Origin: a virus
Virus record (IMG/VR): IMGVR_UViG_3300035670_005765
Span: 1 to 31,731 of that record
DNA length: 31,731 bases
Direction: 5' to 3' (one strand)
Shown here: positions 8,609-29,800 of the stretch, one piece after another
Layout of the letters: each line of letters starts with the position of its first letter
Position numbering within the stretch: position 1 is the first letter of the stretch
The notes under the pieces: generated by a model
Database searches by the model: none
Told to the model about the DNA's origin: nothing
What the model saw: only the letters and a program-made list of their open reading frames with translations
Translations under genes and position numbers: made by a program

Positions 8609-9910
8609 TTAGAAAGTACCGTAAGCAAGATCCGCTTGCAGGATTTGAGAGGTCCGTACATCGTCGGGCTCACACACATCCAAAATAGAGATCCACTCTG
8701 GATATACAGCAAAGGGCATAAAGGCATCCCCTAACTGCATAACACGTCCCGGAGGCGCAGGGGGTTCTTGGTCACCAGACATGCGCATATAAACACCAGG
8801 AGAACCGTCGGGAGATTCACCAACACAGTGCTGGGTCATACCCAAACGCGCACTACTATCATTCATGTGGGTAGCAGCAACAATAGCTACTTTATGGGCA
8901 GGCCACCAGTGCTTAATCTGATTATCTACCGGGTCACGGTATAAACCATTTACTACACGGATTTTCAGACCGCCAATGGTGTACAGGTCACCGCCAGGAC
9001 CTAAGGTAACAAAAGTGCTAGGAGGCATATTACCAGCACCAGATACAAACTCAGCAGTAGAGTTGGTCCGGTCTAAGAACATAGCCGCGGGGACACCCAT
9101 ATAAGCCTTAACGAGGTTGTTCTCTTGAAGAACAGTCATTAAGTCGGAAGCAATAATAAGTTCCGTATACTGGTTCTTATTACGGTTAAACAGGTACTGC
9201 TTAACCATCCGGATAGTATAAGCCAAGTCGGCTTTCTCATCCGTCCAAGGAACGCCAAAACGCTCGTCGGTAGAACGGAACAGTAGAGCTTCCGGACGAC
9301 CTTTATCGTTAGCCATAGGCTGGTTAGCTGCATAGCCATTAACGAAGTCGCCGGTAGTTACATCAGCATTAAACCCTTTATAAGAGAAGTAGTTCTCGGC
9401 AGGGATATTAGTGCTTACATCTACAGTGTAGTTAGTCCGGGGGTCCGTATAAGAAATACCACCTTGTAAAATCTTGGCACGGAATAGGTCAACAGTACGT
9501 TTATGGCGGTTAACCAGTTTTTGTACTCGGCGTTCAACAATTTGTTGAGGGCTCCATTGTTGGTTAACAGTACCCGGCTGGCGTAACTGGTTAATCAAAG
9601 CTTGTTCAATGAAGTCTTCTTCACGAACAGCTACCGGGGTTACGCGGAATTGCCGCATTCTGTCGTCTTCGATGAACCCACCACCAGGAACACCAAACCG
9701 GACAATAGGCATAATGCCAAGACCTTCGATAACCTGCTCGATCACAATGGTCCGCTCAGGAATCATAGTGTCAGGGAACAAGTCGTCGAATTGACCGGTT
9801 TCTACAATATCAAAACCACGCGCTAGGAGCGTTAACTGGAGACTACCAAGAGAGTGTAAATCACCTGTGTAGCCGTATTCAGTAATTTCGGGATGAAACT
9901 CTTGAGGCAT
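8609..9910 (-). CDS. Major capsid protein, lambda gpE-like
   Basis: This is probably the shell-forming head protein. The 433-residue length is normal for HK97-fold capsid proteins. Features typical of the gpE-like branch are an N-terminal region with IPERTIVIEQ and IMPIVRFG, a basic helical segment (VERRVQKLVNRHKRTVDLFR) at about residues 125-145, and near residues 305-350 the pattern of a Gly-rich loop. That loop runs DLYTIGGLKIRVVNG then WWPAHKVAIVA and corresponds to the conserved gpE C-terminal motif. It lies directly after the protease/scaffold gene, the standard capsid module order. The start is preceded by an A run rather than a Shine-Dalgarno sequence. An HK97-type capsid protein of another family is the only real alternative. 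Confidence 0.85.
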   Translation of the reverse strand: MPQEFHPEITEYGYTGDLHSLGSLQLTLLARGFDIVETGQFDDLFPDTMIPERTIVIEQVIEGLGIMPIVRFGVPGGGFIEDDRMRQFRVTPVAVREEDFIEQALINQLRQPGTVNQQWSPQQIVERRVQKLVNRHKRTVDLFRAKILQGGISYTDPRTNYTVDVSTNIPAENYFSYKGFNADVTTGDFVNGYAANQPMANDKGRPEALLFRSTDERFGVPWTDEKADLAYTIRMVKQYLFNRNKNQYTELIIASDLMTVLQENNLVKAYMGVPAAMFLDRTNSTAEFVSGAGNMPPSTFVTLGPGGDLYTIGGLKIRVVNGLYRDPVDNQIKHWWPAHKVAIVAATHMNDSSARLGMTQHCVGESPDGSPGVYMRMSGDQEPPAPPGRVMQLGDAFMPFAVYPEWISILDVCEPDDVRTSQILQADLAYGTF

Positions 9911-12032: not shown

Positions 12033-12668
12033 ATGAAAGATGTAGCTTACCTACTAGCAACCTTAGACCAACTTCGCTATACAGTTGAGATAATTGATGC
12101 ACAAAGTTGCGAATTTAACGGGGATATCTGGATAAAATACACTGTCCGTAATAAGACTAAACACCACAATACAGAAGAATATACACGGCAGTTTAATGCT
12201 AAAGACCTAGCTTCTACTCTAAACTACGATTGGTCTAATATTAAACCCAGAATAAATACATTTGTTAAATTACTAGACTTAAAGATAATACTAGGTGAAG
12301 ATATAGACTACTGCTGCTTTTTAAACTGGAAGCAAACCATTGAGGCTGAAGTAAGGTACGCAGAGATACAAGGGGACAAAGTAAAGTACCGGCAGCGCAG
12401 TACCACTAACCTCATACCAATAAAGTACAATCTAGATAAGGTATTGGCAGCGGAAGGTATTTTAGACGGACTCACAATACTAGACTATGCGGGGTCGCAT
12501 TATACAGTGGTAACGCCAGCTAAAAAGGAGCACTTAACGACTGGGGTTTACTGTAGTTGCAGGGAGTTTATATCCAATAAACGGTGTAGCCACAGTAAAT
12601 TAGTTAGCCTTCTACCGGAACACCGTAGATTATTAATGGAGTATAACCTGCTGCAAGTTAAGTTCTAA
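12033..12668 (+). CDS. SWIM zinc-finger protein of unknown function
   Basis: The product has 211 residues. Near the C terminus is the SWIM-type zinc-binding pattern CxCx8CxH: Cys174, Cys176, Cys185 and His187. SWIM fingers bind DNA or proteins in recombination, transposition and chromatin factors; which of these applies here is unknown. The first 150 or so residues show no motif I recognise and have a mixed alpha/beta texture with many Lys, Tyr and Asn residues. The gene stands alone on the plus strand inside the minus-strand virion gene series. Its stop interlocks with the portal stop, both being read from the four bases CTAA at 12665-12668. It looks like an inserted cargo gene rather than a structural one. 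Confidence 0.75.
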   Translation: MKDVAYLLATLDQLRYTVEIIDAQSCEFNGDIWIKYTVRNKTKHHNTEEYTRQFNAKDLASTLNYDWSNIKPRINTFVKLLDLKIILGEDIDYCCFLNWKQTIEAEVRYAEIQGDKVKYRQRSTTNLIPIKYNLDKVLAAEGILDGLTILDYAGSHYTVVTPAKKEHLTTGVYCSCREFISNKRCSHSKLVSLLPEHRRLLMEYNLLQVKF

Positions 12669-14179
12669 CCACCAGTCTTCATATTCTTTTTAGTATCACT
12701 ACCACTAGAGGAGTCTTTAGCCGGCTTACGGTCCTTCTGCTGGGGTTTACTACTACCTGTAGGGCGCCCAGCGGTAGGTTTCTTGACTGCTTCGTTAGGT
12801 ACAGTAGGGGCTAGGGGAGCAATAAGGACATCGTCAATAAACTGCCGGTCCGAATCTTCCATCTCTCGACTACTAAGACCACCAATCTGCCGAACCATAG
12901 CCCAATCCATGGAGTTAAGAGGGTTAAGGTAGCCCTTATCAGTTAAACCTGTTACTACTTGCATAGTAGCTACACGATCTTCTGGGCGGTCACTAAACTG
13001 ATGAGCAAAGCTTGGAGGAACCTTAGCCGAAGCCTTACTAAAATTCCACTGCTGTGTGGTCATTAAACACTTCTGGATTAAATGGTTCATTAAGACCTTA
13101 CGTTCGTTATATACAGTCTTAAAGTAGACCTCCATACGCCGTTCCCGTGCAGCCTCTAAAGAGTTAGTGTCTTGAATAAGGAAATAAGGGACTATATGTC
13201 GGACAGACTCAGCGTCTACATAACGTAAGGTCTGTAAAAAAGTATCTCCAAAATTATCACCTAAAGCTATGCTGCCTATCTCGGGTTTATACTCTGAACC
13301 TGGCGTAGTCTGCGGTAAGATCATTGCCCTAATATCACCGTCATTAGACTCCAACTGCTCCTGTATAAACTCCAGAGTAGTCTTCGGTCTCTGGTCACCA
13401 GTAGTTGGGTCTACTACAATCTCGTCAGTCATACTATGAGAAGGTGTTCGGACCCACATAGCACGAGTACCTAAACGGTCCATAGCACTCAACATCATTT
13501 CCACCATGACCTCTTTGAGTCTAGACCACTTATAAGCAGGAGCAACTAAAGAATGCCCATAGTAGTTACCGTACTCAGAGTCTGCAGCCATATAGATATG
13601 TTTCCATAACTTAAGCTGGCGCTCTCCAGCAGGTTCTATGGGAGTATGCTGATAAATACCAGAGCGATGGTAACCGTCAAAAGTCTCGTTACCCTCGGTT
13701 AACATCCCCTTTTTATCAGGGTAAATAGTAATAGTAGTAGGATGGTAAGTAACAATATCCTTGATAGTAAGAGCGCCGAAGTTAAGATTATAAAGGACTT
13801 CAGAAACACAGAATCCGGCCCAGTCTTTAGTAAACTGTAGCTCCCTTAATATCTGCTCCCAGCTTTTACCACTCTCGTCTTCGAGTCTAGATAGATTATT
13901 ACGGTGAAACTCCTGAATCTCTTTATCAGGATGTACAGGAAGCCCAATAGAGCCTACTATAGCATCCACCCGAGTATTAATAGCAGACTGTATTGTTAGG
14001 TCTTGCCTAACCATTTTCTCGTAGACGCGCATCTTAGCCCGCAGAGGACGTTGATAAGCGAGTAGTTGATTGAAAGTCCCTTGCTGCTTGAGTTTGTCTC
14101 TTACACTCCGTCGGTCTGCATACCGAACATTACCGGGAGTGAATGGGACAACCACTGAATTGCTGTTAGTTCTAGGCAT
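12665..14179 (-). CDS. Portal protein, Mu gp29 / DUF935-like
   Basis: This is probably the dodecameric portal through which DNA is packaged and ejected. The 504-residue length is normal. Family-type features are an N-terminal arginine-rich region, the paired segments DLTIQSAINTRVDAIVG (about 60-76) and GFCVSEVLYN (122-131), YGHSLVAPAYKWSRLKE (207-223) at the start of the long stem helix region, and a disordered Lys/Ser/Thr/Gly tail. It begins the minus-strand head series, upstream of the protease/scaffold and capsid genes, which is the expected place. No terminase is visible in the window. The start is divergent from the plus-strand series, with 95 bases between them. The Mu-type portal assignment is by pattern and not by alignment. 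Confidence 0.8.
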   Translation of the reverse strand: MPRTNSNSVVVPFTPGNVRYADRRSVRDKLKQQGTFNQLLAYQRPLRAKMRVYEKMVRQDLTIQSAINTRVDAIVGSIGLPVHPDKEIQEFHRNNLSRLEDESGKSWEQILRELQFTKDWAGFCVSEVLYNLNFGALTIKDIVTYHPTTITIYPDKKGMLTEGNETFDGYHRSGIYQHTPIEPAGERQLKLWKHIYMAADSEYGNYYGHSLVAPAYKWSRLKEVMVEMMLSAMDRLGTRAMWVRTPSHSMTDEIVVDPTTGDQRPKTTLEFIQEQLESNDGDIRAMILPQTTPGSEYKPEIGSIALGDNFGDTFLQTLRYVDAESVRHIVPYFLIQDTNSLEAARERRMEVYFKTVYNERKVLMNHLIQKCLMTTQQWNFSKASAKVPPSFAHQFSDRPEDRVATMQVVTGLTDKGYLNPLNSMDWAMVRQIGGLSSREMEDSDRQFIDDVLIAPLAPTVPNEAVKKPTAGRPTGSSKPQQKDRKPAKDSSSGSDTKKNMKTGG

Positions 14180-14274: not shown

Positions 14275-15075
14275 ATGTCTTCACTTCCGGAAACTATCAC
14301 TATTGAGTCCTGCGATTTACCCTCTGGTAAAGTCAACGTGACCTTAAAGTGCCCACGCTACGGCGACCTACGGAAAGCTCGTAAACTATATCCTAACGAG
14401 ACGGACAACCGCGGACGACGCAAGTCTCCTGGATATGCAACAGAAGAGCTCCTTATCTGCCAGCAGTTAGTAGATGTAACTGATAATGACGGAATTAGCT
14501 TGCTAGATAAACATAAAGCTAAAGACATCATTGACCGGCTTACTATCTTTTCTATCCCCGACCGTCAAGCTCTAATGACTATCTTCCTGGAAATCTTCTG
14601 GGTAGGTGCAGAACAAGCTAAAGCCGCCCGAGACTTAGCTAAGGAGTTTATGGTAACCGCTGCGTTCAACTTCCATATTAGTAAAGAACAAATGCCTATG
14701 GGAGAGTTTAACCTTTCCTATAACGCACCTAACACAGGCACTCAGATGGCAGCAGACCGTCGTTATCAAGGCGTGCAAGAACAAGGATGCACCTTAGAAG
14801 AATTCCTCTTTGCTATGTGCTTACATAGCACCAACGATGATGTAGTGGAACCCTCTAAAGATGTTATATCAGTACTTGACAGTTGGACTATTGCTGATGT
14901 GCAGTTCGCTAACCTGGTGTTTATTAACCAGTTTACTTTAGACGACTCTGAGGAAGAGAAAGCTAAAGAAGCGGGGAAGCGCTACTTGGAAAAACTTGGT
15001 ATCAAAAAAGCAGAACCTTCTGGAGCGCTGAAGCGCCCGACGAAGTCTACTCAAGAAGCTACCAAACCCTTGTAG
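14275..15075 (+). CDS. Probable tail assembly chaperone, upstream frame product
   Basis: The product has 266 residues. It begins MSSLPETITIESCDLPSGKV, a start reminiscent of tail assembly chaperone and baseplate hub assembly proteins that open with a short beta segment and a PSG phrase. The rest is mostly helical and ends in a charged tail. The functional call comes mainly from context: it is a pair of small genes directly upstream of the tape-measure-position gene, with a likely -1 frameshift joining the two frames near residue 245. In lambda and many other phages such a pair (gpG/gpGT type) coats the tape measure during tail assembly. The last 21 residues would be made only when no shift occurs. 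No clear Shine-Dalgarno sequence precedes the ATG. Confidence 0.6.
   Translation: MSSLPETITIESCDLPSGKVNVTLKCPRYGDLRKARKLYPNETDNRGRRKSPGYATEELLICQQLVDVTDNDGISLLDKHKAKDIIDRLTIFSIPDRQALMTIFLEIFWVGAEQAKAARDLAKEFMVTAAFNFHISKEQMPMGEFNLSYNAPNTGTQMAADRRYQGVQEQGCTLEEFLFAMCLHSTNDDVVEPSKDVISVLDSWTIADVQFANLVFINQFTLDDSEEEKAKEAGKRYLEKLGIKKAEPSGALKRPTKSTQEATKPL
15004..15038 (+). promoter_or_regulatory. Candidate programmed -1 ribosomal frameshift site
   Basis: Six A residues (15004-15009) are read as two Lys codons in the upstream frame. After 12 bases a GC-rich hairpin follows: GG (22-23) and GCGC (25-28) pair with GCGC (33-36) and CC (37-38), with a bulged A and a TGAA loop. A one-base backward slip moves into the frame of the next gene, which has no stop between 14967 and its own stop at 15542. 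A P-site tRNA-Lys on the second AAA can re-pair perfectly after the slip. The site is not a perfect X XXY YYZ heptamer in phase, and the 12-base spacer is slightly long. Confidence 0.5.
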
Positions 15076-15095: not shown

Positions 15096-15542
15096 ATGTG
15101 CCCAGGGTTTGCTAAGGTAGACCCTCTCTATGAAATAGCTGGACGCGCTTACAATATCCCTACTGGTTACGAAATCATTAGATGGGATATAACTAACGAA
15201 GAGCTAGAAAACCTAGTTCTAACTAGAGATACAGTATTTCAAGATGCCGCAAAGGTTATCTCCAAAAAATACAACATCAAAACCTGGGTGGGTATCAATC
15301 AGCTAGTTAACGTTAGTCTTAGTGAATGGTTAGGTCTTACCGAAGACCCCTTTATACGACACTATGGTTACCCAGATATCGTTATGCGCGCCGTAGCTAT
15401 GGAAGTAGAGGATTTAAGCAATGAGCTAGATAAAAAGCGCAAAGACCAAGAACTAAGAATGAAAGAGCTGGTGCAGAAGCCTGCCTTAGATGCTTTATCA
15501 GCTAGCGCACCTAATAGCGCCCTCAGTAAAGTATTCCGCTAA
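15096..15542 (+). CDS. Second frame of the tail assembly chaperone (probable GT-type extension)
   Basis: From its first ATG this frame gives 148 residues, but that ATG has no Shine-Dalgarno sequence and the frame is open back to 14967. The extra upstream stretch (frame from 15009) reads SRTFWSAEAPDEVYSRSYQ and continues smoothly into MCPGFAKVDPLYEIAG, so it looks like real coding sequence. I therefore favour expression as a -1 frameshift extension of the 14275 gene; the fusion would be about 422 residues. Independent initiation at 15096 is the alternative. The C-terminal half is helical with a basic-acidic stretch LSNELDKKRKDQELRMKELV. It is likely to bridge the tape measure to tail tube subunits during assembly. 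Confidence 0.6.
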   Translation: MCPGFAKVDPLYEIAGRAYNIPTGYEIIRWDITNEELENLVLTRDTVFQDAAKVISKKYNIKTWVGINQLVNVSLSEWLGLTEDPFIRHYGYPDIVMRAVAMEVEDLSNELDKKRKDQELRMKELVQKPALDALSASAPNSALSKVFR

Positions 15543-15610: not shown

Positions 15611-18600
15611 ATGGCTGATTCAGTAGTTACCAATCAATCCCAACTAATAGCCTTACTAGCTGACAGTAAGCTAGTAACTCACGTTAGTAAGGAAATTACA
15701 AAAACCTACTTCACTACAGAAATAACGTTAGCTAGAGCTATACAAGATGCGTTAAGCTCTGAAGGACATACAGTTGACCTAGGGTTAATCAAAGACTTTA
15801 TTGGAAATAGACACCTATTATTAACACACTTACCAGAAGTAGCTCAGCAGTGGGAAAGATTAAATAAGACTAAGGGTGAAAAAACTAAGGTAGAAGACGT
15901 TAGCCCGGACATTCTAGAGAGTAACCCCACAGAAGACTTTCTAGGTGATATAAGACTAAATGCTGCAGACCCCTTCCGGGCTATGCGGTCTTTTGCAGAT
16001 AAATTCTCCAGAGCGGAGATAAATCAATTTGGAGGTAGTTTTAGGTTAAACGCAGCCAGAACTACTGAAAGTTATAGAGCTCTAGGGGAATACTACACCG
16101 GCAGACTGGAAAAAACTATAAACAACACTAGCCAAACTTTTAAAAGTCTGGAGTCTAGAGCCAGTGTATATGGTGAAGTGTCTGGCTATTACAGCCGAGC
16201 TACAGAGTTAGACTACTTCTCTATGTTCACGCAGGGAGAACGGGGTAAACAAGGATTTAAAGGCTCTTTCTTCCAACTACAAGAGGTGAGCACGCTGTCT
16301 GCTCTGTATAACAGAGAAGGTAAAACTGAAGTAGCCACCCAAGTATTAACCGCTGCCGACTACAACGATGAACGGATTGATAGTCCTGTAAATAGTATTA
16401 GACAAATGGCAGCAAAACAGATAAAGAAAAAAATAGATATTCTGGCGGCTAACACTATCAGCCAAAATCTAGCTTACCGCTATAAGGATAAAACAAACCT
16501 TGAGGTCTCTGGAGTAACTATGGCAGAAGGGAGCATCCACGCGAAGATTGGATACTTCTACGATAAAGGTGAAGACGACGTTACTGGTTTTCTAGTAAGT
16601 ACACAGAACATTACTCCAACACTGAGTAAGACGACTACTGTGGAAGACATGTTACTAATCAATAGACCTAATCAAAGAGAGGGTGAAGGCGACGACACCT
16701 ATAACATGCGCCTAGCTAGCTATAACAAACTTGCTAAACAGGTAAAGGCAGCTAGCGATGCTATGTTAAGCCTGATGTCCACTAAAGAGGGTAACCTATA
16801 CGACCAGTTTAATAGGTCAAAACAGTTTATCACTGAGTTTACAGAGCGTATTGGAGACCAACTACAGCGAGGAGTAAGGGAAACAGAAGGTGGTGTCTTT
16901 GCTAACCATGAGATACTACCAGCCTTAAAAGGTATTATAAAAAGTGCAGCAGAGAGTGAAACTAAACACGTAACAATGTCAATGCAGTATCTAGAAAAGG
17001 CACTGCTAGAGAGAAACGTCCTAGGTGAGGATACTTTTAAAGACCTAGAAACATTAGCTAAAGATAATAGACTACGTATAGGTGTTAGTGCTGGGAGCAT
17101 AGGGGATACGCAGGGATTATACTACATGCTAAGTACCCTAGACAGAATGGAAGACGGCGAAAGTAAAGACTTTATAAAGAGTCTTATCAAAAACGACTCG
17201 TTTACCATACTACCAACCCAGCTACAACACAGTAAGTCACTGGCGGTCTTTGATAGGGAAAAAGACTCAGATAGGTTCAACTTAATTGAGTACTTTTTAG
17301 GGTCAGCTAACATAAGTAAAGCTGGTATGGCAGATATTGGCGGCACTACTACAAACATTGAAGTATCAATGTTAGTTAAAGGTGACTACCTAGACTTACT
17401 GTCTAATGAAGATAAAGAAGGAATAACAAGTAACTATCTATATGGTATAGGTAGAAACTTTAGTGAGGGGTCAAGAACCCAAGGGATGCTTATAGAGCGG
17501 CGCGGAGACGCTAAACAAGTAAATAATGCAATAAGTATGCTAAATGCACTTGGAGCTCTAGACAGACAAGACCCAAATAACAAAGATAAAACAGGAAGAT
17601 TATCCTTCTCAAGAAGATATATCCTGGATAAAGACGCAGAAGCTGGATATAGATTAACGGGGATAGACGTTACTATCGGAGATGAGTCTAAAGGAGAAAG
17701 AACCTATAGTCTGGGTTTTACTGTGGGCACAGAAAGGAAATTTGTAAGAAACCAAGATGGAATAGGTAAAGTACAGGAAGTCCCAGTTCTGTATATAAAC
17801 AAGACCCAAAGAATACTAGGTGGACTAATCTACAAGAATGAAGCACCTAGAACATTACACTTCCAGCAGTTTAACCTAGAAACTGGAAAAGTCAAAACTA
17901 AAGAACTTAAACAAGGAGAATCTTATCTAGCTAACGCTATTGATATACTAGGCGGACTTGTTAGTACTATGGATAGTTCTATGAAGTACGACGCTAACGT
18001 CAGGTCACTTGTTAGTACTTATAAGAATATAGACCAAAAAGACATTCGCTACGGTATAGACCGTATGTTAGCCGAGACTATACAGGTCGCATTTACTTCA
18101 CTAAACAATAAAAAGCTCAATGTAAACGGTCTAGATTTGATAGACACAATCGGCGCTCTGAGAAGACTAAGTGATAAAGATGCTAAACAGGTATTGGTTA
18201 AAGTAAGTCGCATACTAAACGTAAGTAACACCGAAGGTATACATGGTAAACAAGCAGAATCTATTCGCGGACAGGAAATAGATAAGATTATACGGAACAT
18301 CTACAGTGGTCTAAGCTCTGATAGAGGTACAGAACATTTAACTACAGACATTACAGAGCAGTTCTATGGACTGATTAGAAGCTCCTTGGGATTAGCTAAC
18401 CTAGATGAGCCTAAAGCTAATCAGTTTACACAGATGTTCAGTGACCTTGCTATAACTGCACTCAAACATAGCGAGGTGGGATATAGAACTTACATTAAAG
18501 AAATAGAAGAAGGCAGAGGACAAATCTACCACCGCATGGTAGATGCATTCCAGCAACCACATACACAGAACTATTCACAAGGTCAAGCGCTACATGCTTT

Positions 18601-21600
18601 ACCTGTATACGGACTAACTAACGTAGTAGACAATAGGTTAGCGGCGTTTATACAAGAGAAGACCGGATTAATACTTAATCCATACTCTTTAATGCATGGT
18701 GAGACATTAGGGACCATGAAAGACTCCCAAGGAAATATTATCCAAGGTGAGTATCTACGAGGTATCCAGAAAGGTGCTGGACGCGCGGAGACAGAACAAT
18801 ACTATGAAGCCTATGGAGGTCTACAAAAGATAGAGGGTGGAGCCCCAGTAGTGCATGACGCTTTTGGGCTAGCTCAAAGTATGCCTACCCTACAAGCTGT
18901 TACACGAAAAGAGTTTAGAAAGCGAACTCTAGATATGCTTAGAGCGTTAGGTACGGCGGAAGCAGATAACATAGCCTCACTGCTAACCTCCACAACGTTC
19001 GATAAAGTAAACAGCGAGGGTAAAAGTGGAGAGGATATAGAAAACCAGATTCTCTATTATTTCCCGTACGCTAAAACCGAACAGATTAGTCAACGGATGG
19101 GAAACCTTACCTCTACCCGACCGATGTTCGACGCGTCTAATTCCTTTATAAAGTATGCTCTTAGCTTCGGAGCATACGGTAGGTATAATCAGTTTAAAGA
19201 AGACCGCACTAAGATAATTGACGGTGCTTTACCTGGCTCTTTACCCGTACAACAGTTTGAGGCTCTACAACAAGAGAAAAAGGCTAGAGGAGAAGACGTT
19301 AGTTATCTAGAGATAGCTAAGGAGTGGTCAATGCAAGACGAGGGCCTCGGCAAAGGCTTCCTAGGTAGCGAACGCCCTAGACTTATCAGCATCATTATGG
19401 GTGCTACACAACTGTCCGACTACGGTATCTATAACCCCGAATATAACAAGGGTGATGAATCCCAAGGATTATACGAACAAGGGATGAAGTACCTCAAACC
19501 TCACCGTGTACAGGTAAATGGTACTTTGAGCAGTACTAGGACCAGTCCTATAGATTTAGCAAGGAAGGTGCAGGAAGTACTTAAACCAGGTACCATCTTC
19601 ATAGCTAGAGACAGAGCTGTTGAGAGTAAAGACCTGCTTAACAAGTTTGCAGAGGATATACAAGTCTTACTTAAAAGTCAGTTTGCTACTGCAGCAAATG
19701 CAGATACGTCAGATTGGAAGATAGATTATACAGACTTAACAGAAGAGGGACTAATAGCTAAAGCTAAAGGACTAAGGGACCTATTAGAGAATAAAAGTGA
19801 TATTACAGACTCTGACTTGTTTAGAGCCGTAACCGAGACGCTAAATGTTTTCAAGAAGTATCACAAGTCTGTAAGTATAGGTTACGAGAACAATCTAGGT
19901 AATAAAAAGATTAACTTCAAGATTCGTAAAGGGGTATATAGCCCAACGGACTTTAGCGAGAAAAGCGGAGTGTATACCCCGGCAGATCCTAGCCAAGAGA
20001 TAAGAGGATTAAATAACACACTTGTAAGTATTGGGGATGTAGAGCCTGGAGATGCTCAATTTACCCTACGGGCATTTAGCTTCTTCGACGGGAACAGTGA
20101 GTATAAAGTAGGTCCTATGAAAATAGCAATACCTGCACATAGCGCCAGAGAGTTAAACGCCTACTCGGTATTAGGACATGTAGCCCTAAACTCTAACGCT
20201 AACAACACGTTCCTACTCGATGTGGAAACTTATACCGTCGAAGACTTCATGTCTGGTATGCGGGCAGGTACAATTCTACCTAAAGGACCTTTTAGAGGAG
20301 GTCGTAAAGAGCTCTTCGAGACTTTAGCTAATATATACGAAGGCGTTCCGACTAACCTTCTTCCTTCACATATGCAGCGGAAGAATATAAGCGGAGAAAC
20401 CCAGAGAATATCCGCAGAAGATATTTTTGCTTATGTGTCTTCTAGTCAAATTAAAGGTTTTAACTTTGAGTTAGGCTTAGGACTACTATCCGGAGGAGAA
20501 AAGGGTAGCGGAGCTTTACTGAAAAGAATGAGAAGTGGTACTGAGATAGCTCAATCCCTCGCTTTGATGTTTATAGATGCTAAGGGTAGTACTATAGGAG
20601 GAGACAACAATAAACGACTGTTGCTAAGTAGACTGGCTTCGAGTCTAGAGAAAAGTGGAGACCAACAACAGTTCGCTACAGCCTTAAAGATAAGAGCTGG
20701 TAACCAACCCATCTCTGATAAATTTACTAGTTTTAGTGCTACACCCGGTATCTCAGGTTTATCTATCTTTAGTGGTCTAGCTAGCCTCGTATCTATAGAT
20801 AAAGAAGAAAGTCTAGAGTCTGCGCTGCTAAAAACTGTAATTGAAGCGTTAGGTAACGAAGAAGCTGCAAAAGAACTAGGTAACCGCAGCAGTAACCTAC
20901 TTGAGTATTTATTCAAAGCAGAGAACAAACTCTATATAACGGACGAGGGTAGCGATAAATTTACATTCAAGGATACCTTTGAGACTAAACCAATAGGACT
21001 ATTAGCTTTCCTAGCTAAAGCAAGTTCTGATATATACGCGGATATAAAACTAGACGACGATAAAAATAGTCGGTATAACATCGGAGGACTAGGCGAAGCT
21101 GTAATGGATAGCCGTAATATCTTTGAAGATACGAGTCTGCTAGATAATACAGAGGATAAATTGAGTGGTGTATTAAGGATACTTAGCAGAGTAACAGGAG
21201 ACAGCTCCATAGGAGGGCAATACCAACTAGGGCATAGACGGAGAGCTCTATACACAGAACTAATAAAACTACAGCAGGCTACTAAGGGCAATCTAGATAA
21301 AGCATTTACAGTTCATAACATGCTGTCTAGTGCAAACCTAGATATGTACACTAACGACTTTATTAAACTTCTTCAGTCAGAAGTGCCCGAAGATAGAATG
21401 TTAGCCCTGGAAGACTTAGCTAACACAGACTCGGTAGCTAGGAAAGTAGCGTACATGAAGAGTAATGACGCTAATATCCGCCTAGTGACAGAAGAATACT
21501 CCCATGGCTCAAGTATCTACGAGTTAGCTACTGTTAACTATACGGAGAAGATAAGTAAAAGACTAGGTAAGCCTATAACACAGAGAGAAGCATTAAGTCT

Positions 21601-24600
21601 ATTAGAAAAGACTGAGAACAATGCTGAATTCTTTACTTTCCGCGCGGCATTAGCCGAAGAACTACAAAAACTAAACGCGCAGGTGGGAGAGCCTAACGAG
21701 GTTCTCAATAAACTCATGCAAACTAGTAATAACCTCTTCGGGATAGAAGGTGGACTGAGCGAGAGCGATATTAGAGACTACATGTCGATATTAAATAACG
21801 GAGACCCCCTATCCCAAGCTAAGAAAAAAGGGACTAGCGGCTATTACTCTGCATTAGAAGCTTACGCTGGCTTAGCCGGTCCGGTATTAGAGAATGCACA
21901 ACGTACCATGGCTAGAGCCTTCGGGATTATCCTACCAGACCAGATTAAAATCCAAGAGATATTAAAACGAGCTCATGCTGGACAAACTCTAACAGATAGC
22001 GAAGTGCGTCTACTAAAAGAGACAGAGTTCTCTCTTGGTAGTATACGTGATGCTATACAACAACAAAGAGCTGTCCTAATGCCGGCAGAGTTTGCTATGA
22101 GTAAAATAGCTACACCAACCGGGAGTAAGAACGTAACAGCGTTAGAAGGACACTTAGCCAGGTCAATGACTAAACGACAGTTAGACCTATATACCTATAG
22201 CCCTAATGAGTATACCGATGTTAGCTCTGTACAAGAAGCTCTATTTGTTCTTGCCCGCATCTATGAGGGAACACTAACTACAGACAAACAAATTACGTCA
22301 AAGTATCAGTTAAAACTGCATAACTTAGGATTCGGTGCTATAGCCCCTCTATTAGACACAAGTGGTGAAAGCAGAAAGACAGTTAACAAGATAAATAAAG
22401 TAAAAGCACTACATAAAACAGAAGCCAGCGTAGTTGACTTCCTAGTTAACTACAACTCCATGTTCCGCAAGTCTCTACCAGGAGAAGATGTAAACATCGA
22501 TGCTGGTGTAGAGTTGCTATATAAACTTACAGAAGGAGACGAAACTACGGTAAAAGAGCACATGGAGAAGGTTAACCAAATAACCTTAGGGGAAGTAAGC
22601 TCAGCTAGTATGTCTTTCGAAGAGCAGATACAGCGCCGCACATACCTGCTGGCAGAGTATATCTATGACCAACGGGGAGGACATAAAGTACTAGAGAGAA
22701 AAGTAGACGAGCAGCTAGGTAAATTTACGAACTTGGCTTCTACAAAAAGCGTAAAATCAGAACAATACATAGAAGAGCTAAAAGCAAAAACAGAAAGAAC
22801 ACCAGAAGAAGAAAGAATCCTACGGTTATGGGATACTTATCTAAAAACTAATAACTATGAGGAGATAGTAAAAGAAGAAAAGAGTATAATGATGCGCCAA
22901 GGAAGAGAGACGGAAATAGAACGTCTAAGCAGCCTTGGAGGCTTACGTAAGAAGATAGAGCACGTCCAAAGCACTAATGAAGGCAATGCTTACCTAGAGG
23001 CTATGAAAAGTCTCTACACAGTAGCTACAGAGCAGGCAAAGTATAGCCCAAATTCCAAAATAAGAAGCGAGGCAGAAAGACAAAAAACTCTACTTAAACA
23101 GTCTAGGTTTATCGCATTACCTAACTACAGCCTAGTAAGTAGTGATTTTGAAGGGAACCTAGTCTTAAAACACCGCTCTACTAGCTCGGGACAAGTCGGA
23201 ATGTCTACGGGCGTTATCCTAGGTTTAGACGTCTTGGAAAAGATGTCTCTACTATTTCAGACTGACAGCCACCCAGCCTTAAAGGCACAACATCAATTAA
23301 TTAAGCAACTATCAAAGACACAGAAGATTATAGACAGGGTCGAGAAAGAGATGCTGTCCACGGGTAAAGTTACAGTAACTCAAGAAGAATACCAAGAACT
23401 ACAAACACTAGAAGACTTAATGGCTGCGTCTAAGCTAACTACGCTGGACATAATGCAAAACAAGAATAGTATCAGGCAATCCACGGCTAACCGCCTTAAC
23501 ATGATGGGGGCCTCGTATATTGCAGTCAACTCCTTACTAGTAGGTCAAGATGAAGTAGCCTTAGGCTCTAGAGCAGAACGGCACTCTGGGTCTGAAACTA
23601 CAGGAGGCACTCTACGCTTTACAGGTTCTGCACGCCCCAGCTATAAAGAACTTGAAGAGTTAATGTATGACCCCAGTGGATTTAAGTTCCTCAGCATAGC
23701 TCAGAAACAAGTAGCCAATATACAAGAAAAGGCCGCCACTTTAGTAGAAAATGACCCTACTAGAATTAGACTCGAAGCTAAAGCACAAGCCTGGAATACT
23801 ATCTTAGACAGCAATAGACAAAGTAGGCTGACCACCATAAACAACAGAATAGAAGAGCTAAACGCAGAAAAAGAAAGTTTACAAGCCAAAATAGACGAAG
23901 CAAAAGCTAATAACGGCGGAGCAGAGACTCTACAGATTAGAAACTGGATGGAGAACATCTCTGATATAGAAACTGACTCTAAGAACTTAACTGTCGCACA
24001 AGAACTAGCTGCAAAAAGCGAAAACTTAGTGTGGAAGCATAGCAATACTTTATCTTGGGACCAATACAAGATAATGAGTGGCATGCGGGATAAAATAGAA
24101 AAAACACGGCTATGGGCAGAGAGTAACACCGCCAAAAATCCAGGCTTAGATAGACTAGCCGATTTATCCAACCGTCTACTAAACAACGAAGAGTCCTTCG
24201 ATAGACAAACCTATTTAGAGTGGCAAGCCGAAGTTAAACGGGTATCTAACCTAAAAGGACATCAAGGCAATGCCTTAAACGCGCATGGATTAACTCAAGC
24301 AGACTCAAAATCCGAGTTAAATAAAATTAAAAAGCGGGCTAAGTCTAACCTTAAAAGTTGGCAAAATGACTTAACCTATCTACAACAACTACAAGCAAAA
24401 CAACCCAACGCTAAAATAAAAGGCAAAACTATACAGAGTATCATTAACAATAAACTGTCTAATCCGGTATTAACCCCCTACATAATGGGGGAAGATAACG
24501 ATGCTATACGGGCTAAAGCAACCAGTATAATAGCCTGGATGAATAAGGCAGAGCAGAACTTAAATATATTAACTACAGAGCAACAGGATATCTTTAGACA

Positions 24601-27600
24601 AGCTAGAACTTCTATGTATACCGCTGCGAGCTCTCTCCTTAATGCTGGTAACCCCAGTGGTAGTGAAGCTTACGTAGAGTTAGATGTGTACAGAAGATTT
24701 AATATAGAACTATCTAGCTTCCAAAGTAAAATAAAAAGCTTCACTATTGACTATAAGGAGTTAGTAGATGATGGCATGTATAAGAAGTTCAACGCTATAG
24801 AAAAAACACTCCGAATGGGTGTATTAGAGCTATCTCCTGTAAATAGATTAAAAAGAATAGAAATAGACGCTAAAATGCTAAAAAGTTATGAAGCAGATAT
24901 AATTAAGTACCAAACTAAAAGAGATAAACTAGAAAAGAATAAAGACATCATTAAGGCTACCAATCTAAGGGAGGAGAATATTAGCCTGCAAAGAAACCTA
25001 AAACAACAAGAAACTGAGCTACGTAAACTAAACGATAAAATACTAAGTATTAAACCAGGTACGGAAGAGTTTACGGCAATACTTTTAGAGCAGGTCCAGT
25101 TAGACACAAAGATAGCTGAGACAAGAAACAAACTAAAAACCACCCAAGTAGCGTTAGGCAAAGTTCTACAAAAAGATATTAATGGAAAAACAGTAGAACA
25201 CCGCCTACTACTGTTGGAGGGTGGAATAAACAAAACTGGAGAGTATATATCTAGCTATAATGAACAGATTAGTAATCTTAGCCAAAAACGAGATGCCTTA
25301 AAGAGCAAGTTCGAGTCGATAGAAAAGCTAAACCAGTGGGTAAGTAGACTACAAGACTTAGCAAAAGCCTATGGAAACAAGGACTATAAAAACATAAATA
25401 GCAGCTATGTAATACAGAAGCTAGAGTCCTCTGGTGTACGGATGGACCTATTTGAGTTAGAGATAATAACAGGAAGCCGAGTATTAAGTAAAGATAAGAG
25501 AGACATACTTGCTGAAGTAGACAGAAAAGCATTACAAGCAGGTATGCAAATAGGTCGTTCTGGCGCTCTTTATGGTTCTTTTGATAGTAGTAGGGGTGGA
25601 GCAGCCGGGATAACAGGTGTAAATCCAATAACCGCCGACGAGATGTATAACTCCCGTATACGTGAGACAGGTTCGTTATTCGGTACGGATACTAACTCTT
25701 CTGCGACTTTAATGATGATTAGCGCCTTCGGTTTCCAGTATGTTGGACTGGGAGACTTCGACGGTGACTCCTACCAAGCAGCATTAACCAGTGTTACCAA
25801 GATTAGAGGTAACATAGCTAGACTTACCGAAGAAGAACGTGACTTACAAAGAACTATAGCCGGACTGAAAAAGGCTAAAAGCACCGCTATAAATAAAGAA
25901 GAAAAAACTAAACTTAACCGCGAGATACATACATATCAAGCACGATTAAAAACAAAATCCGAGGAGAAAGCGGAAGCAGAGAAGAAGTTAAATACTGTAC
26001 GGCAACAAAGCAGGGAGTCCACCGTAAATAGTATGGACGAGGCTAGAAAAGGTATACGTGCTTATACCATGGACTACCTTGCTTTACCTGGATACCTATT
26101 CGGCAGTAACGAAGATGGTGACAAGTTTGCATTTAAAGACTCAGACTTAGCAGGTCTAGTTAAGCAGTTCCGAGACACATTAGGGGGATTATATGACCGT
26201 AGCGGAGATACAGATAATGTAGTGGGTGGCTTTGCGTATATTAGACAAGCTAAAGAAGGAGAAGATAAACTGGCTAATACTAACTTTACAGTTGACAAAG
26301 AAGCTTTAATAGCAGAGAAAGGCCAAGTTGAAGCAGCACGCCTTGTTGATGCTATAGGTACTTGGCATAGCCGCTATGTAGAACACAAGGCTGAAGATAT
26401 AAAGCTAGAAGAACTTAGTTTAGAAGAATATCAGAAACAGATGGTAAGGTGGGTTCCCCAGGTAGAGTCTGTATACATGACTATATCTACTGCGGGTAAG
26501 ATTCTAAAAAATTCTAGCGGTAGCCAGATTAGCAGCACTGACCTACACTCTATCCAGAGTTTAATGGGACAGACCGGTGGCGGATTACTTGGTAAAGTAT
26601 ATAACACCATCGTACCTAGTGTTACAGGACGTATTGGTGACCATCTTATGAATCGTCTTATGAGCGACGAAGTTTCACAAGACGCGCTCACTAACGCTGT
26701 AGACGCTCAGCTAAGAGCAAAGCCTAGCGCTAACCAGAAAACTGCATCTAGTAAAGACTATACCTATACAACAGAAGTTAACGAAGTATTAAAGAACATC
26801 AAAAAGAGAACTACTGGAAGTACACCCTGGGCAAGTGTCCAGAAAAAAGGTGAAAAAGATGCGTCTACTGCTTACCGCTTCTTACTTGGAATCCAGCAGT
26901 TTTTACGGGACGCAGCACTGAAGCCTAAAGAGGGAGCCGGATTAGTAGCAGCCACAGGAAACTTTAAACTCAGTGACCAGGCTAAAAAGTTAATAGCTGA
27001 TAAAGGTATCAAGGGTCTCACTGTAGAATCCCTATCTAAGTTAAAGGGTTACGATAGCATACTTGCTTTGGAAAATGTAGCCCGCGAACATAAAAATGGC
27101 AGAGATTTTCTAGAGATAGTCTCTCAAGACTTCCTAGGTAGTGCTGCTAACACTGTCCTTACAGACTTATATGGTGAAAATGAGTCTAAACCAGTAGATG
27201 AGAGCATGACAGCATTTGCTATGCTCCGATTAATAACAGACTACGCCGGAGGTAACTCTAAAAACATGGCGGAAATGTTCGACGCAGATAAATACCTCTA
27301 CGCACCAGCATTACTACAAGCACATGAACGATTAAGCGAAGGTAAAACAAACCACACAAGAGAAGATACCGTTAAACAAGTAATAACTTCTTTACTAGGA
27401 AAGTTCCAGTCAAACTTTATAGTCAGCTCTGTAATGGAAGGCGGTAAGGGTATTACTATCGACCAAACTGAAAAAACACTATTAGCACACAAAATAGAGT
27501 TAAAAGTAAAAGACGGCGTCTACAGCCTTGATACTGAGTCCGAAAAGGCTACAAAAGGTGGAAAGCAAAATATCACAAATCAGGTACAAGAGGACTTAAA

Positions 27601-29800
27601 CGCGTATAACCAAGTTGAAAATAAAAACCTAACAATAGGAGAATGGGTAAAACTAGACCAAGGTAAAGAAAAACTTTATGAGTATACCAAAGAGGTTAAC
27701 ACTGTTCAGGGTAAGTTAATCACCCACTTAGAGAAGACTGTAGAAGAAGTTAATAAAGACATAAAAGCAGGAAAGATAACCAGCCAGGAAGCCAACAAGC
27801 GTATAACCGAGACCACCTTCAAGACGATTGTAGAACATACAACAGGAGAACAAGGCGAAGCTCTAATAGAACAACTAAGCAAACTACGTGAGTTCAATAA
27901 GACCGTAGCAGAAATCAAAGAGTTTGGAGATACTAGTGAGACTAGAAGTCATCTTTTTGAGGCGTTACACGCTGCTAATGTTGGAGCACAACAAGCCTTA
28001 TTAGAAGATGCGGCGGTTACTGGTATCTTTAGTAAAGAGCTGCAAGCCTCTACTTATGCAACAGATACAGGTAAGCTGACTAACGAAAATCTATACCGCG
28101 CTTTTAGCACAGGCATCCTTGCTGTTACTGACGCTGTTCAAAAACAGGTAGATAACGGGAGTATTTCTGAGAGTGAAGCCAAAGGTGTATTTAGTTATCT
28201 AGCTATGGGGGGCATGTTACCTGAAGCCATACAGAAGAGCTATGAAGAACAAGAAGCCGAAATAAGAAAGCGGTTTGGTAATAATGAAGAAAGAGCAGAC
28301 GAAGCCATAGGGAAGTTTAGGGTGAGCTTCTTAAAAACCTTAGCTGCTAGTAATGGAGAAACACCTAGCATACTAGAGACTATTGCACAAAATAGCGGTT
28401 ATGTCGCGGCTACAGCTAATTGGAGAAGTATAGCTGAACAGAGTAACGCAATGTTAGATAACGCAGATAATCTCACTGCGGAAGAACAAAAACAATATCT
28501 AGACTTAGCTAAAACATCTATCTCTAAACTTGAAGAGATAGAACAACAACAACTAGCAGCAAGTGGTAAATTAAGTTCTACACAACCATCTGTAGAACTA
28601 CCTAAGTTACCTGATACAACTACTTCACAACTACCGGGAGAAGCTCCTAGTCTACCTAACCCCACACAAACTCCAGAAGAAGTAAATAAAGTTGTAACTC
28701 CACCGAGTTTAGACATGGGAGGCACACCAAGCCCTGAACAGGTATCTGTGCCTACTTCTACACCTGATATTGCTGGTATAGGTAAGACCACCGCTAAACC
28801 AGTGTCTACTGCCGGTGCTCCAAATAACCCTGCGTTTATGGACGCAGAAGGAAACAGTATACAATCCTCACAAATGTGGAATGATGTAGAAACTGCACAA
28901 GTAGCCATACATAACTTGGGAAGGAAAGTGCAAAACAGATGGGAAGTAGAAGAAGCAGTAGCAAATAGGAAAAAACGAGATTCCACGTTAAGAAGGACGT
29001 TTAGTATCGCCGAAGGACTAAGTATCCTAGCTGTCCCTACAATCTTTGCCGCTATACAAGGTGACATACCTCTAGGTGAACAGATACAAGGACTTGCTTC
29101 CGGCACAGCACAGTCTTTACTAACCATGGGGAGTTTTAAAGAATCCACGATAAACTCTATGGCTAAAGGAGATATTGCTGGACTAGAAAGAATGCAAAAA
29201 GCAGCGGCTAAGTTAGAGCACGCTCGTATGAGAGACTACTTTAGATACTACGATTCTCCTACAGAAGCATTAGCTCGTAGCTTCGGCAATGAGTTAATGA
29301 TTCGAGGTATGGGCGCTATAGGTAACGAATTAGGTACTCTATTCGATATAACTAGAGGCATAGACCCACTACTAGCTAGTGAAACCGGAGCGGGTAGACT
29401 TATTACCGAAGTAGCTGCCGGTATGATAGGTAAAGTCGTTAGTGGAGCTTTGACCGGCGCACCTGTAGGTAACTACTCTTCTACACAGACTGATATAACC
29501 CAAGCCATTATGGAAAACGCAGCTAAATCTGTACAAACTATCCAAAACTATATAATGGATAATTTGTCTAATATAGCTAGCGATATGGATGATGACTTTA
29601 ACCTGTGGGTAGGTCAAGAAGAAGAAAATAGCACTACTGTAGCCTTAGACAACCGTAGTTCCGGGGATAACTTTAATCCAGAAACTAAAGTCGCTCTTGA
29701 CGCAACAGAGTTCGTACAAGTAGTCCAGATTGGAGAAGAGAGCGTAAGTCTAGCCCAAGAGCTTGGACTTATTAACTACGACGCTGAACCTTATGTATAA
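15611..29800 (+). CDS. Giant 4729-residue tape-measure-position protein with PLD motifs and a DFDGD motif
   Basis: A single intact frame. It occupies the tape-measure position, after the chaperone pair and before baseplate-position genes, so it is probably a tail protein ejected into the host. About residues 190-640 form a two-HKD phospholipase D-type domain: HAK (His310, Lys312) with Asp318 and STQN (330-333), then HSK (His540, Lys542) with Asp548, GSAN (564-567) and NIE (Glu584). The next 2000 residues are mostly helical and unassigned. Coiled coils lie at about 2730-2775, 3075-3150 and 3400-3470. GDFDGDSY sits at 3381-3388 (Asp3382, 3384 and 3386) and resembles the catalytic metal motif of double-psi barrel RNA polymerases. 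A Pro/Thr/Ser-rich linker (about 4320-4410) precedes a C-terminal part with a hydrophobic stretch at about 4464-4485. The start is the first Met in frame and has no Shine-Dalgarno sequence. A polyvalent injected protein is an alternative to a true tape measure. Confidence 0.75.
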   Translation: MADSVVTNQSQLIALLADSKLVTHVSKEITKTYFTTEITLARAIQDALSSEGHTVDLGLIKDFIGNRHLLLTHLPEVAQQWERLNKTKGEKTKVEDVSPDILESNPTEDFLGDIRLNAADPFRAMRSFADKFSRAEINQFGGSFRLNAARTTESYRALGEYYTGRLEKTINNTSQTFKSLESRASVYGEVSGYYSRATELDYFSMFTQGERGKQGFKGSFFQLQEVSTLSALYNREGKTEVATQVLTAADYNDERIDSPVNSIRQMAAKQIKKKIDILAANTISQNLAYRYKDKTNLEVSGVTMAEGSIHAKIGYFYDKGEDDVTGFLVSTQNITPTLSKTTTVEDMLLINRPNQREGEGDDTYNMRLASYNKLAKQVKAASDAMLSLMSTKEGNLYDQFNRSKQFITEFTERIGDQLQRGVRETEGGVFANHEILPALKGIIKSAAESETKHVTMSMQYLEKALLERNVLGEDTFKDLETLAKDNRLRIGVSAGSIGDTQGLYYMLSTLDRMEDGESKDFIKSLIKNDSFTILPTQLQHSKSLAVFDREKDSDRFNLIEYFLGSANISKAGMADIGGTTTNIEVSMLVKGDYLDLLSNEDKEGITSNYLYGIGRNFSEGSRTQGMLIERRGDAKQVNNAISMLNALGALDRQDPNNKDKTGRLSFSRRYILDKDAEAGYRLTGIDVTIGDESKGERTYSLGFTVGTERKFVRNQDGIGKVQEVPVLYINKTQRILGGLIYKNEAPRTLHFQQFNLETGKVKTKELKQGESYLANAIDILGGLVSTMDSSMKYDANVRSLVSTYKNIDQKDIRYGIDRMLAETIQVAFTSLNNKKLNVNGLDLIDTIGALRRLSDKDAKQVLVKVSRILNVSNTEGIHGKQAESIRGQEIDKIIRNIYSGLSSDRGTEHLTTDITEQFYGLIRSSLGLANLDEPKANQFTQMFSDLAITALKHSEVGYRTYIKEIEEGRGQIYHRMVDAFQQPHTQNYSQGQALHALPVYGLTNVVDNRLAAFIQEKTGLILNPYSLMHGETLGTMKDSQGNIIQGEYLRGIQKGAGRAETEQYYEAYGGLQKIEGGAPVVHDAFGLAQSMPTLQAVTRKEFRKRTLDMLRALGTAEADNIASLLTSTTFDKVNSEGKSGEDIENQILYYFPYAKTEQISQRMGNLTSTRPMFDASNSFIKYALSFGAYGRYNQFKEDRTKIIDGALPGSLPVQQFEALQQEKKARGEDVSYLEIAKEWSMQDEGLGKGFLGSERPRLISIIMGATQLSDYGIYNPEYNKGDESQGLYEQGMKYLKPHRVQVNGTLSSTRTSPIDLARKVQEVLKPGTIFIARDRAVESKDLLNKFAEDIQVLLKSQFATAANADTSDWKIDYTDLTEEGLIAKAKGLRDLLENKSDITDSDLFRAVTETLNVFKKYHKSVSIGYENNLGNKKINFKIRKGVYSPTDFSEKSGVYTPADPSQEIRGLNNTLVSIGDVEPGDAQFTLRAFSFFDGNSEYKVGPMKIAIPAHSARELNAYSVLGHVALNSNANNTFLLDVETYTVEDFMSGMRAGTILPKGPFRGGRKELFETLANIYEGVPTNLLPSHMQRKNISGETQRISAEDIFAYVSSSQIKGFNFELGLGLLSGGEKGSGALLKRMRSGTEIAQSLALMFIDAKGSTIGGDNNKRLLLSRLASSLEKSGDQQQFATALKIRAGNQPISDKFTSFSATPGISGLSIFSGLASLVSIDKEESLESALLKTVIEALGNEEAAKELGNRSSNLLEYLFKAENKLYITDEGSDKFTFKDTFETKPIGLLAFLAKASSDIYADIKLDDDKNSRYNIGGLGEAVMDSRNIFEDTSLLDNTEDKLSGVLRILSRVTGDSSIGGQYQLGHRRRALYTELIKLQQATKGNLDKAFTVHNMLSSANLDMYTNDFIKLLQSEVPEDRMLALEDLANTDSVARKVAYMKSNDANIRLVTEEYSHGSSIYELATVNYTEKISKRLGKPITQREALSLLEKTENNAEFFTFRAALAEELQKLNAQVGEPNEVLNKLMQTSNNLFGIEGGLSESDIRDYMSILNNGDPLSQAKKKGTSGYYSALEAYAGLAGPVLENAQRTMARAFGIILPDQIKIQEILKRAHAGQTLTDSEVRLLKETEFSLGSIRDAIQQQRAVLMPAEFAMSKIATPTGSKNVTALEGHLARSMTKRQLDLYTYSPNEYTDVSSVQEALFVLARIYEGTLTTDKQITSKYQLKLHNLGFGAIAPLLDTSGESRKTVNKINKVKALHKTEASVVDFLVNYNSMFRKSLPGEDVNIDAGVELLYKLTEGDETTVKEHMEKVNQITLGEVSSASMSFEEQIQRRTYLLAEYIYDQRGGHKVLERKVDEQLGKFTNLASTKSVKSEQYIEELKAKTERTPEEERILRLWDTYLKTNNYEEIVKEEKSIMMRQGRETEIERLSSLGGLRKKIEHVQSTNEGNAYLEAMKSLYTVATEQAKYSPNSKIRSEAERQKTLLKQSRFIALPNYSLVSSDFEGNLVLKHRSTSSGQVGMSTGVILGLDVLEKMSLLFQTDSHPALKAQHQLIKQLSKTQKIIDRVEKEMLSTGKVTVTQEEYQELQTLEDLMAASKLTTLDIMQNKNSIRQSTANRLNMMGASYIAVNSLLVGQDEVALGSRAERHSGSETTGGTLRFTGSARPSYKELEELMYDPSGFKFLSIAQKQVANIQEKAATLVENDPTRIRLEAKAQAWNTILDSNRQSRLTTINNRIEELNAEKESLQAKIDEAKANNGGAETLQIRNWMENISDIETDSKNLTVAQELAAKSENLVWKHSNTLSWDQYKIMSGMRDKIEKTRLWAESNTAKNPGLDRLADLSNRLLNNEESFDRQTYLEWQAEVKRVSNLKGHQGNALNAHGLTQADSKSELNKIKKRAKSNLKSWQNDLTYLQQLQAKQPNAKIKGKTIQSIINNKLSNPVLTPYIMGEDNDAIRAKATSIIAWMNKAEQNLNILTTEQQDIFRQARTSMYTAASSLLNAGNPSGSEAYVELDVYRRFNIELSSFQSKIKSFTIDYKELVDDGMYKKFNAIEKTLRMGVLELSPVNRLKRIEIDAKMLKSYEADIIKYQTKRDKLEKNKDIIKATNLREENISLQRNLKQQETELRKLNDKILSIKPGTEEFTAILLEQVQLDTKIAETRNKLKTTQVALGKVLQKDINGKTVEHRLLLLEGGINKTGEYISSYNEQISNLSQKRDALKSKFESIEKLNQWVSRLQDLAKAYGNKDYKNINSSYVIQKLESSGVRMDLFELEIITGSRVLSKDKRDILAEVDRKALQAGMQIGRSGALYGSFDSSRGGAAGITGVNPITADEMYNSRIRETGSLFGTDTNSSATLMMISAFGFQYVGLGDFDGDSYQAALTSVTKIRGNIARLTEEERDLQRTIAGLKKAKSTAINKEEKTKLNREIHTYQARLKTKSEEKAEAEKKLNTVRQQSRESTVNSMDEARKGIRAYTMDYLALPGYLFGSNEDGDKFAFKDSDLAGLVKQFRDTLGGLYDRSGDTDNVVGGFAYIRQAKEGEDKLANTNFTVDKEALIAEKGQVEAARLVDAIGTWHSRYVEHKAEDIKLEELSLEEYQKQMVRWVPQVESVYMTISTAGKILKNSSGSQISSTDLHSIQSLMGQTGGGLLGKVYNTIVPSVTGRIGDHLMNRLMSDEVSQDALTNAVDAQLRAKPSANQKTASSKDYTYTTEVNEVLKNIKKRTTGSTPWASVQKKGEKDASTAYRFLLGIQQFLRDAALKPKEGAGLVAATGNFKLSDQAKKLIADKGIKGLTVESLSKLKGYDSILALENVAREHKNGRDFLEIVSQDFLGSAANTVLTDLYGENESKPVDESMTAFAMLRLITDYAGGNSKNMAEMFDADKYLYAPALLQAHERLSEGKTNHTREDTVKQVITSLLGKFQSNFIVSSVMEGGKGITIDQTEKTLLAHKIELKVKDGVYSLDTESEKATKGGKQNITNQVQEDLNAYNQVENKNLTIGEWVKLDQGKEKLYEYTKEVNTVQGKLITHLEKTVEEVNKDIKAGKITSQEANKRITETTFKTIVEHTTGEQGEALIEQLSKLREFNKTVAEIKEFGDTSETRSHLFEALHAANVGAQQALLEDAAVTGIFSKELQASTYATDTGKLTNENLYRAFSTGILAVTDAVQKQVDNGSISESEAKGVFSYLAMGGMLPEAIQKSYEEQEAEIRKRFGNNEERADEAIGKFRVSFLKTLAASNGETPSILETIAQNSGYVAATANWRSIAEQSNAMLDNADNLTAEEQKQYLDLAKTSISKLEEIEQQQLAASGKLSSTQPSVELPKLPDTTTSQLPGEAPSLPNPTQTPEEVNKVVTPPSLDMGGTPSPEQVSVPTSTPDIAGIGKTTAKPVSTAGAPNNPAFMDAEGNSIQSSQMWNDVETAQVAIHNLGRKVQNRWEVEEAVANRKKRDSTLRRTFSIAEGLSILAVPTIFAAIQGDIPLGEQIQGLASGTAQSLLTMGSFKESTINSMAKGDIAGLERMQKAAAKLEHARMRDYFRYYDSPTEALARSFGNELMIRGMGAIGNELGTLFDITRGIDPLLASETGAGRLITEVAAGMIGKVVSGALTGAPVGNYSSTQTDITQAIMENAAKSVQTIQNYIMDNLSNIASDMDDDFNLWVGQEEENSTTVALDNRSSGDNFNPETKVALDATEFVQVVQIGEESVSLAQELGLINYDAEPYV

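Follow-up and report, generated by a model that had tools for sequence, protein, structure and literature searches.

Polyvalent proteins are injected multi-enzyme phage proteins. They are mentioned in a section of PMC7824862. In phage P23-45, gp96 is a 5,002-aa tape measure protein with a fused virion RNA polymerase, which was recognized from a lone DFDGD motif (PMC10770324). Phages of the Ma-LMM01 type, which kill bloom-forming Microcystis, have been described as dependent on transcription by the host. In Ma-LMM01, promoters of the host sigma70-like type precede early, middle, and late genes alike, with no motif specific to the phage (PMC5780444), and MaMV-DH01 is described as having no RNA polymerase (PMC9927357). 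Our literature search found no paper on the giant proteins analyzed here. Within that search the family is undescribed until now, the tables of a survey of viral two-barrel polymerases (PMC10770324), which might list it, being set aside.

The window (the whole stretch of DNA analyzed, a 31.7-kb virus record that is apparently a fragment) contains a single + strand frame that is open from an ATG at 15611 to a stop codon at 29798-29800. It encodes 4,729 aa with no internal stop, which agrees with the uninterrupted 14.2-kb frame noted in an earlier sequence-only reading of this DNA. The other features named in that reading also were recovered: two HKD motifs near the N terminus (residues 310 and 540), a lone DFDGD that occurs once, and, from the protein sequence, coiled coils, a Pro-rich linker (residues ~4305 to 4405), and a hydrophobic C-terminal stretch. 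Coiled-coil-like sequence rich in Ala, Glu, Lys, Leu, Gln, and Arg spans residues ~2690 to 3290 and appears again after residue 3390; in the alignment the insertion at ~2690 to 3290 is much shorter in several relatives. When the whole protein and the family profiles were compared with Pfam, PHROG, and PDB sequences, coiled coils were the only result. A match to sCache_2 (E = 6.5e-4, 32 residues), which lay below the cut-off, was taken as chance.

The window protein is not unique but is a member of a family of about 20 distinct giant proteins, which range from 3.3 to more than 5 kaa and have no annotation beyond hypothetical (e.g., Ma-LMM01 gp080 and the protein of Microcoleus phage My-WqHQDG). 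No match was obtained by tblastn of both halves of the window protein against phage records or by scanning viral contigs with its own segments. The relatives were reached through the Ma-LMM01 orthologue gp080, followed by profile searches of viral contigs; by blastp, the window protein and gp080 match in the C-terminal third (E = 2e-4). Members left out of the profiles matched them at 1e-92 to 1e-42 in the DFDGD region and at 1e-51 to 1e-14 in the R1551/K1558 region. A scan of bacterial genomes for the family found none. In one relative, a lone in-frame TGA (L027:6623-6625) separates the PLD half of the giant gene from its DxDGD half. The family alignment runs on in the open frames on either side of it, and a split gene, a sequencing error, or recoding is possible.

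A window-type major head protein was found in 17 of 17 carrier records tested and a window-type portal protein in 15 of 15, and the carriers are classed on sequence as phages of one capsid lineage, which is Ma-LMM01-like. L041 and L032, with head proteins 78 and 75% identical to that of the window, are the closest carriers. Among named phages, the nearest are Ma-LMM01 and MaMV of Microcystis and My-WqHQDG of Microcoleus, at ~30% identity in the major head protein. Where both genes were seen, no more than a few kilobases separate the giant gene from the portal gene. In the window, Ma-LMM01, L014, L015, L025, and L044 the two are divergent; in L002, L010, L011, and L029 they are co-directional. 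A small gp081-family gene often lies between them. The window's gp081-family protein consists of two copies of the gp081 domain of 120 aa, which also is doubled in L029 and is single in most relatives. In the window, the giant gene adjoins the portal gene and points away from the head-tail operon, with the sheath gene and the cut gene at the opposite end (Table 1). The window sheath protein is unusually long (1,199 aa versus 774 in Ma-LMM01), and known sheaths match its C-terminal part only. Between the portal and protease genes, on the opposite strand, is a 211-aa gene (12033-12668, +) whose Cys/His pattern (CSCREFISNKRCSHS) is similar to a zinc motif of the SWIM type; L029 has a relative in the same place.

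Ma-LMM01 encodes a second giant hypothetical protein, gp120 (117618-126314; L045:20619-29315), of 2,898 aa with several hydrophobic segments. Relatives of gp120, the longest with an open frame of 5,486 aa, were found in 7 of 15 carriers. Hydrophobic segments are many in Ma-LMM01 gp120 itself and few in the sampled parts of its relatives. From these sequences, gp120 is a possible tape measure or a possible second ejected protein.

Table 1. Features of the window (residue numbers refer to the giant protein)
Feature	Position	Strand	Basis or remark
Cut gene	1-431	-	Matches gene after sheath in Ma-LMM01
Tail sheath protein	519..4118	-	PHROG 30392
Major head protein	8609..9910	-	PHROG; found in 17/17 carriers
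Head-protease-like protein	9955-11187	-	Same strand as sheath, head, and portal genes
Portal protein	12665..14179	-	PHROG 113; found in 15/15 carriers
Doubled gp081-family protein, conserved neighbor of giant gene	14275..15075	+	Locus comparison
Small conserved neighbor gene	15096..15542	+	Relative in L029
Giant gene	15611..29800	+	Open frame, 4,729 aa
PLD-superfamily region, residues ~190-640	16178..17530	+	Conserved in 13 members; PLDc_2 in relatives
First HKD half-site, H310-x-K312, D318, N333, E345	16538..16645	+	H, K, N, E invariant
Second HKD half-site, H540-x-K542, S565-x-N567, E584	17228..17362	+	Asp not conserved
KxxQxxQRxxN block, residues 1155-1171	19073..19123	+	Invariant in 14/14 members
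R1551/K1558/K1615 block, candidate beta-type barrel	20261..20455	+	Invariant; no rpoB match
Segment, residues 2612-2650	23444..23560	+	hhalign to GKRVDYSGRSV strand of rpoC; weak alone
Long coiled-coil-like insertion, borders approximate	23678..25480	+	Composition and alignment
R3316 segment, RSGALYG in window, RSxPxG in most relatives	25556..25576	+	R in 15/15
DFDGD, residues 3382-3386	25754..25768	+	Invariant D-x-D-G-D
Conserved GQTGGGLLGKVYN block, residues 3651-3665	26561..26605	+	Family alignment
Conserved QQFLRDAALKPK block, residues 3762-3773	26894..26929	+	Family alignment
Pro-rich linker, borders approximate	28523..28825	+	Sequence composition
Hydrophobic stretch, residues 4464-4482	29000..29056	+	KD 1.83

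The best supported enzyme of the giant family, and a well supported one as judged from residue conservation, is a PLD-superfamily enzyme. The two HKD motifs read HAKIGYFYD...STQN (residue 310) and HSKSLAVFD...GSANIS (residue 540). Residues H310, K312, N333, E345, H540, K542, S565, and N567 show no variation among the 13 to 14 members that cover them, and the D318 position is occupied by Asp in 10, Glu in 2, and Asn in 1 of 13 members. By its half-sites the domain belongs to the PLD superfamily: H, K, and N are invariant in both, and the Asp is kept in the first only. Because the HKD motifs, like DxDGD, are conserved across family members, they are not chance occurrences. Pfam PLDc_2 was matched at or above the cut-off in L010 (31.4) and L029 (27.1) and more weakly in other relatives; the window's own copy alone gave no significant PLDc_2 match. 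The family-conserved site and the PLDc_2 matches in relatives lend support to the claim, made from the window alone, that this large multi-domain protein carries at least one enzyme. As to substrate, the domain may be a nuclease. In L066, which has no first HKD half-site, a block resembling a DEDD/RNase-H-like exonuclease (FFDIETSG...HNVREFD) is present at L066:7160-7750 (residues ~1473 to 1670 of the giant), with a Pfam RNase_H_2 match below the cut-off (E = 0.01). This pattern would fit the replacement of one nuclease by another.

The DFDGD motif occurs once in the window protein, compared with ~0.014 occurrences expected from the protein's own composition. Its three Asp residues are invariant in all members of the family, and the flanks vary (LGDFDGD, NDFDGD, and LDYDGD). 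In all members DxDGD conforms, as a motif only, to the metal-binding DxDxD of two-barrel RNA polymerases. The residue that follows is never Gly, and the next one is hydrophobic; the residues after the motif are QM in rpoC, TL in gp96, RM in TSP4, and KM in gp66 of the crAss-like phage phi14:2. Since the following residue is never Gly, a calcium loop (EF-hand, dockerin, or FG-GAP) was rejected. Some 60 residues upstream of DxDGD, most members have RSxPxG, which has counterparts in gp96 (FRNPVMG) and gp66 (YRIPNQG) and is degenerate, with no Pro, in the window's clade.

The family profile was scanned against the rpoC profile in 72 segments, of which only those around residue 3380 stood out (26.7 to 27.3; next, 18.6). 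In the best segments against gp96, RSxPxG was aligned to gp96 residues 717 to 748 and DFDGD to DFDGD, collinearly. Segment 2612-2650 falls in polymerase order relative to DFDGD by hhalign against rpoC, and a GGGLLGKVYN block lies at a distance similar to that of the bridge helix/trigger loop. The hhalign P value for the polymerase comparison was ~0.003. In column-shuffle controls only DFDGD was not exceeded (0 of 100); RSxPxG alone (30/150) and the upstream strand alone (17/150) were not significant on score. What speaks for these two is order and register, which is suggestive, their joint weight being no clean probability because several segments were inspected.

No significant sequence similarity to a known two-barrel RNA polymerase was found. 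Pfam RNA_pol_Rpb1_2 (PF00623) matched none of 17 carriers, and the phi14:2 gp66 core did not match the family profile. Profile comparison revealed no beta-type (second) barrel, and the R1551/K1558/K1615 block had no match to rpoB or gp96. For a polymerase of the N4 virion type, the T7-like polymerase family PF00940 gave no match, nor did it in control genomes. AlphaFold2 gave a poor model of L029 residues 1240 to 2439 (pLDDT 45) and a low-confidence model of L066 residues 1835 to 2170 (pLDDT 59.7; 26 to 45 in the barrel part), and Foldseek found no matches to these two models. The sequence-only reading had placed a second enzyme around DFDGD. Such an enzyme is plausible and can now be named as a beta'-like barrel, but with poor models and an empty Foldseek search it is unproven. 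In order and register, the flanks of DxDGD appear to agree with the beta'-type barrel found in two-barrel RNA polymerases, including the P23-45 polymerase that is fused to a tape measure. An RNA polymerase is the leading reading of this region, with roughly even odds of being correct.

We propose, with a probability of about 0.5, that the giant is a structural-cluster protein that is packaged, ejected with the DNA, and equipped with a PLD enzyme and a beta'-like barrel RNA polymerase. It would be packaged in the particle of a Ma-LMM01-like phage and then ejected into the cell alongside the DNA. Early in infection, its PLD-superfamily domain, at the N terminus, would serve as a phosphodiesterase or nuclease. 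The middle part, with DxDGD, would form a beta'-like double-psi barrel, and the two-barrel RNA polymerase to which this barrel belongs would copy a portion of the entering genome into RNA, as P23-45 gp96 and crAss-like gp66 do. What was observed is the family itself, conservation of its PLD site, a DxDGD that never varies and whose flanks are in polymerase-like order, and a constant neighborhood of head genes; polymerase fold and activity, presence in the virion, ejection, and the PLD substrate are what we infer. The neighboring genes are all that may point to the virion and to ejection. The host-type promoters in all expression classes of Ma-LMM01 (PMC5780444) count against an early polymerase role. 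The statement on MaMV-DH01 (PMC9927357) weighs less, because the annotation behind it would miss the giant family.

The same promoters, together with the low polymerase scores, the predicted structures that gave no barrel, and the solid PLD site, would suit an ejected or internal-head protein with a PLD-type enzyme and no polymerase, in which DFDGD belongs to an unrelated fold as a loop that binds metal or has a structural role. Like polyvalent proteins, it would act against the nucleic acid of the host or shield the entering genome. We regard this as doubtful, though a serious competitor: DxDGD is invariant and followed by a non-Gly residue, which does not fit an EF-hand, dockerin, or FG-GAP loop, and RSxPxG and the upstream strand recur in polymerase order and register across independent comparisons. 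A protein made in the infected cell that acts on host or phage nucleic acid and is not packaged would agree with transcription apart from the head operon, from which the giant gene is divergent. Portal and head genes are its constant neighbors in all carriers, and a size this extreme, together with coiled coils, is typical of proteins in the particle, so this alternative seems very improbable.

The giant gene had been assigned to the tape-measure position, as part of a fused tail protein. A tape-measure gene is expected behind those for sheath, tube, and chaperones; the giant gene instead lies beside the portal gene and is divergent from the sheath gene, so the assignment does not hold. An enzyme-carrying tape measure that sets tail length, and with which the enzymes enter the cell, has a precedent in the 5,002-aa gp96 of P23-45 (PMC10770324). 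The large size and coiled coils of the giant would agree with it, and by size and position the small gp081-family neighbor could be a tail chaperone. However, gp081 matches no chaperone family and was rejected as one, hydrophobic segments in the giant are few, and 7 of 15 carriers have another giant, related to Ma-LMM01 gp120. Like the gene's position, this second giant leaves the tail part of the claim unsupported, and a tape measure is unlikely.

Returning to the packaged polymerase and PLD enzyme, the broader claim would be that the family forms a hitherto unrecognized lineage of two-barrel RNA polymerases in phages, linked within one ejected chain to a PLD-type nuclease (RNase-H/DEDD-like in one relative), in all Ma-LMM01-like phages examined; we hold this tentatively, at slightly less than even odds. 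If the largest head-region protein is an injected polymerase and nuclease, current views of the start of infection need revision, and the two-barrel polymerases would include a further, distant lineage that has a new partner domain. The giant gene is present in cultured isolates, and the claim is therefore open to direct test.

Among described systems, Ma-LMM01 gp080 (YP_851094.1; 3,562 aa) and My-WqHQDG WOL31285.1, a gene cut by the record end, are of the same family, have the same place by the portal gene, and share the conserved DxDGD region; gp080 also has the PLD half-sites but is without the window protein's long coiled-coil insertion. With the PLD superfamily (PLDc_2, PF13091) the giants have in common the two HxK...GSxN...E half-sites, from which they differ in the second half-site without a conserved Asp and in the fusion of the domain into a giant phage protein. 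P23-45 gp96 has no significant sequence similarity to the family but resembles it in its ~5 kaa, lone DFDGD, upstream R-x-P-x-x-G, and coiled coils. Unlike the giant, gp96 has its polymerase N-terminally, within ~800 residues, has metallopeptidase and membrane domains and no PLD domain, and is encoded by a siphovirus tail gene. phi14:2 gp66 is a large single-chain virion enzyme, as the giant would be if its place in the virion is correctly assigned, with DxDxD and an upstream RIPNQG; it differs in having DFDID rather than DFDGD, in giving no profile match to the family, and in that no PLD domain was seen. The likeness to polyvalent proteins is one of description only: both are very large and multi-domain and carry enzymatic domains, and a domain swap is suggested in the giant relative L066.
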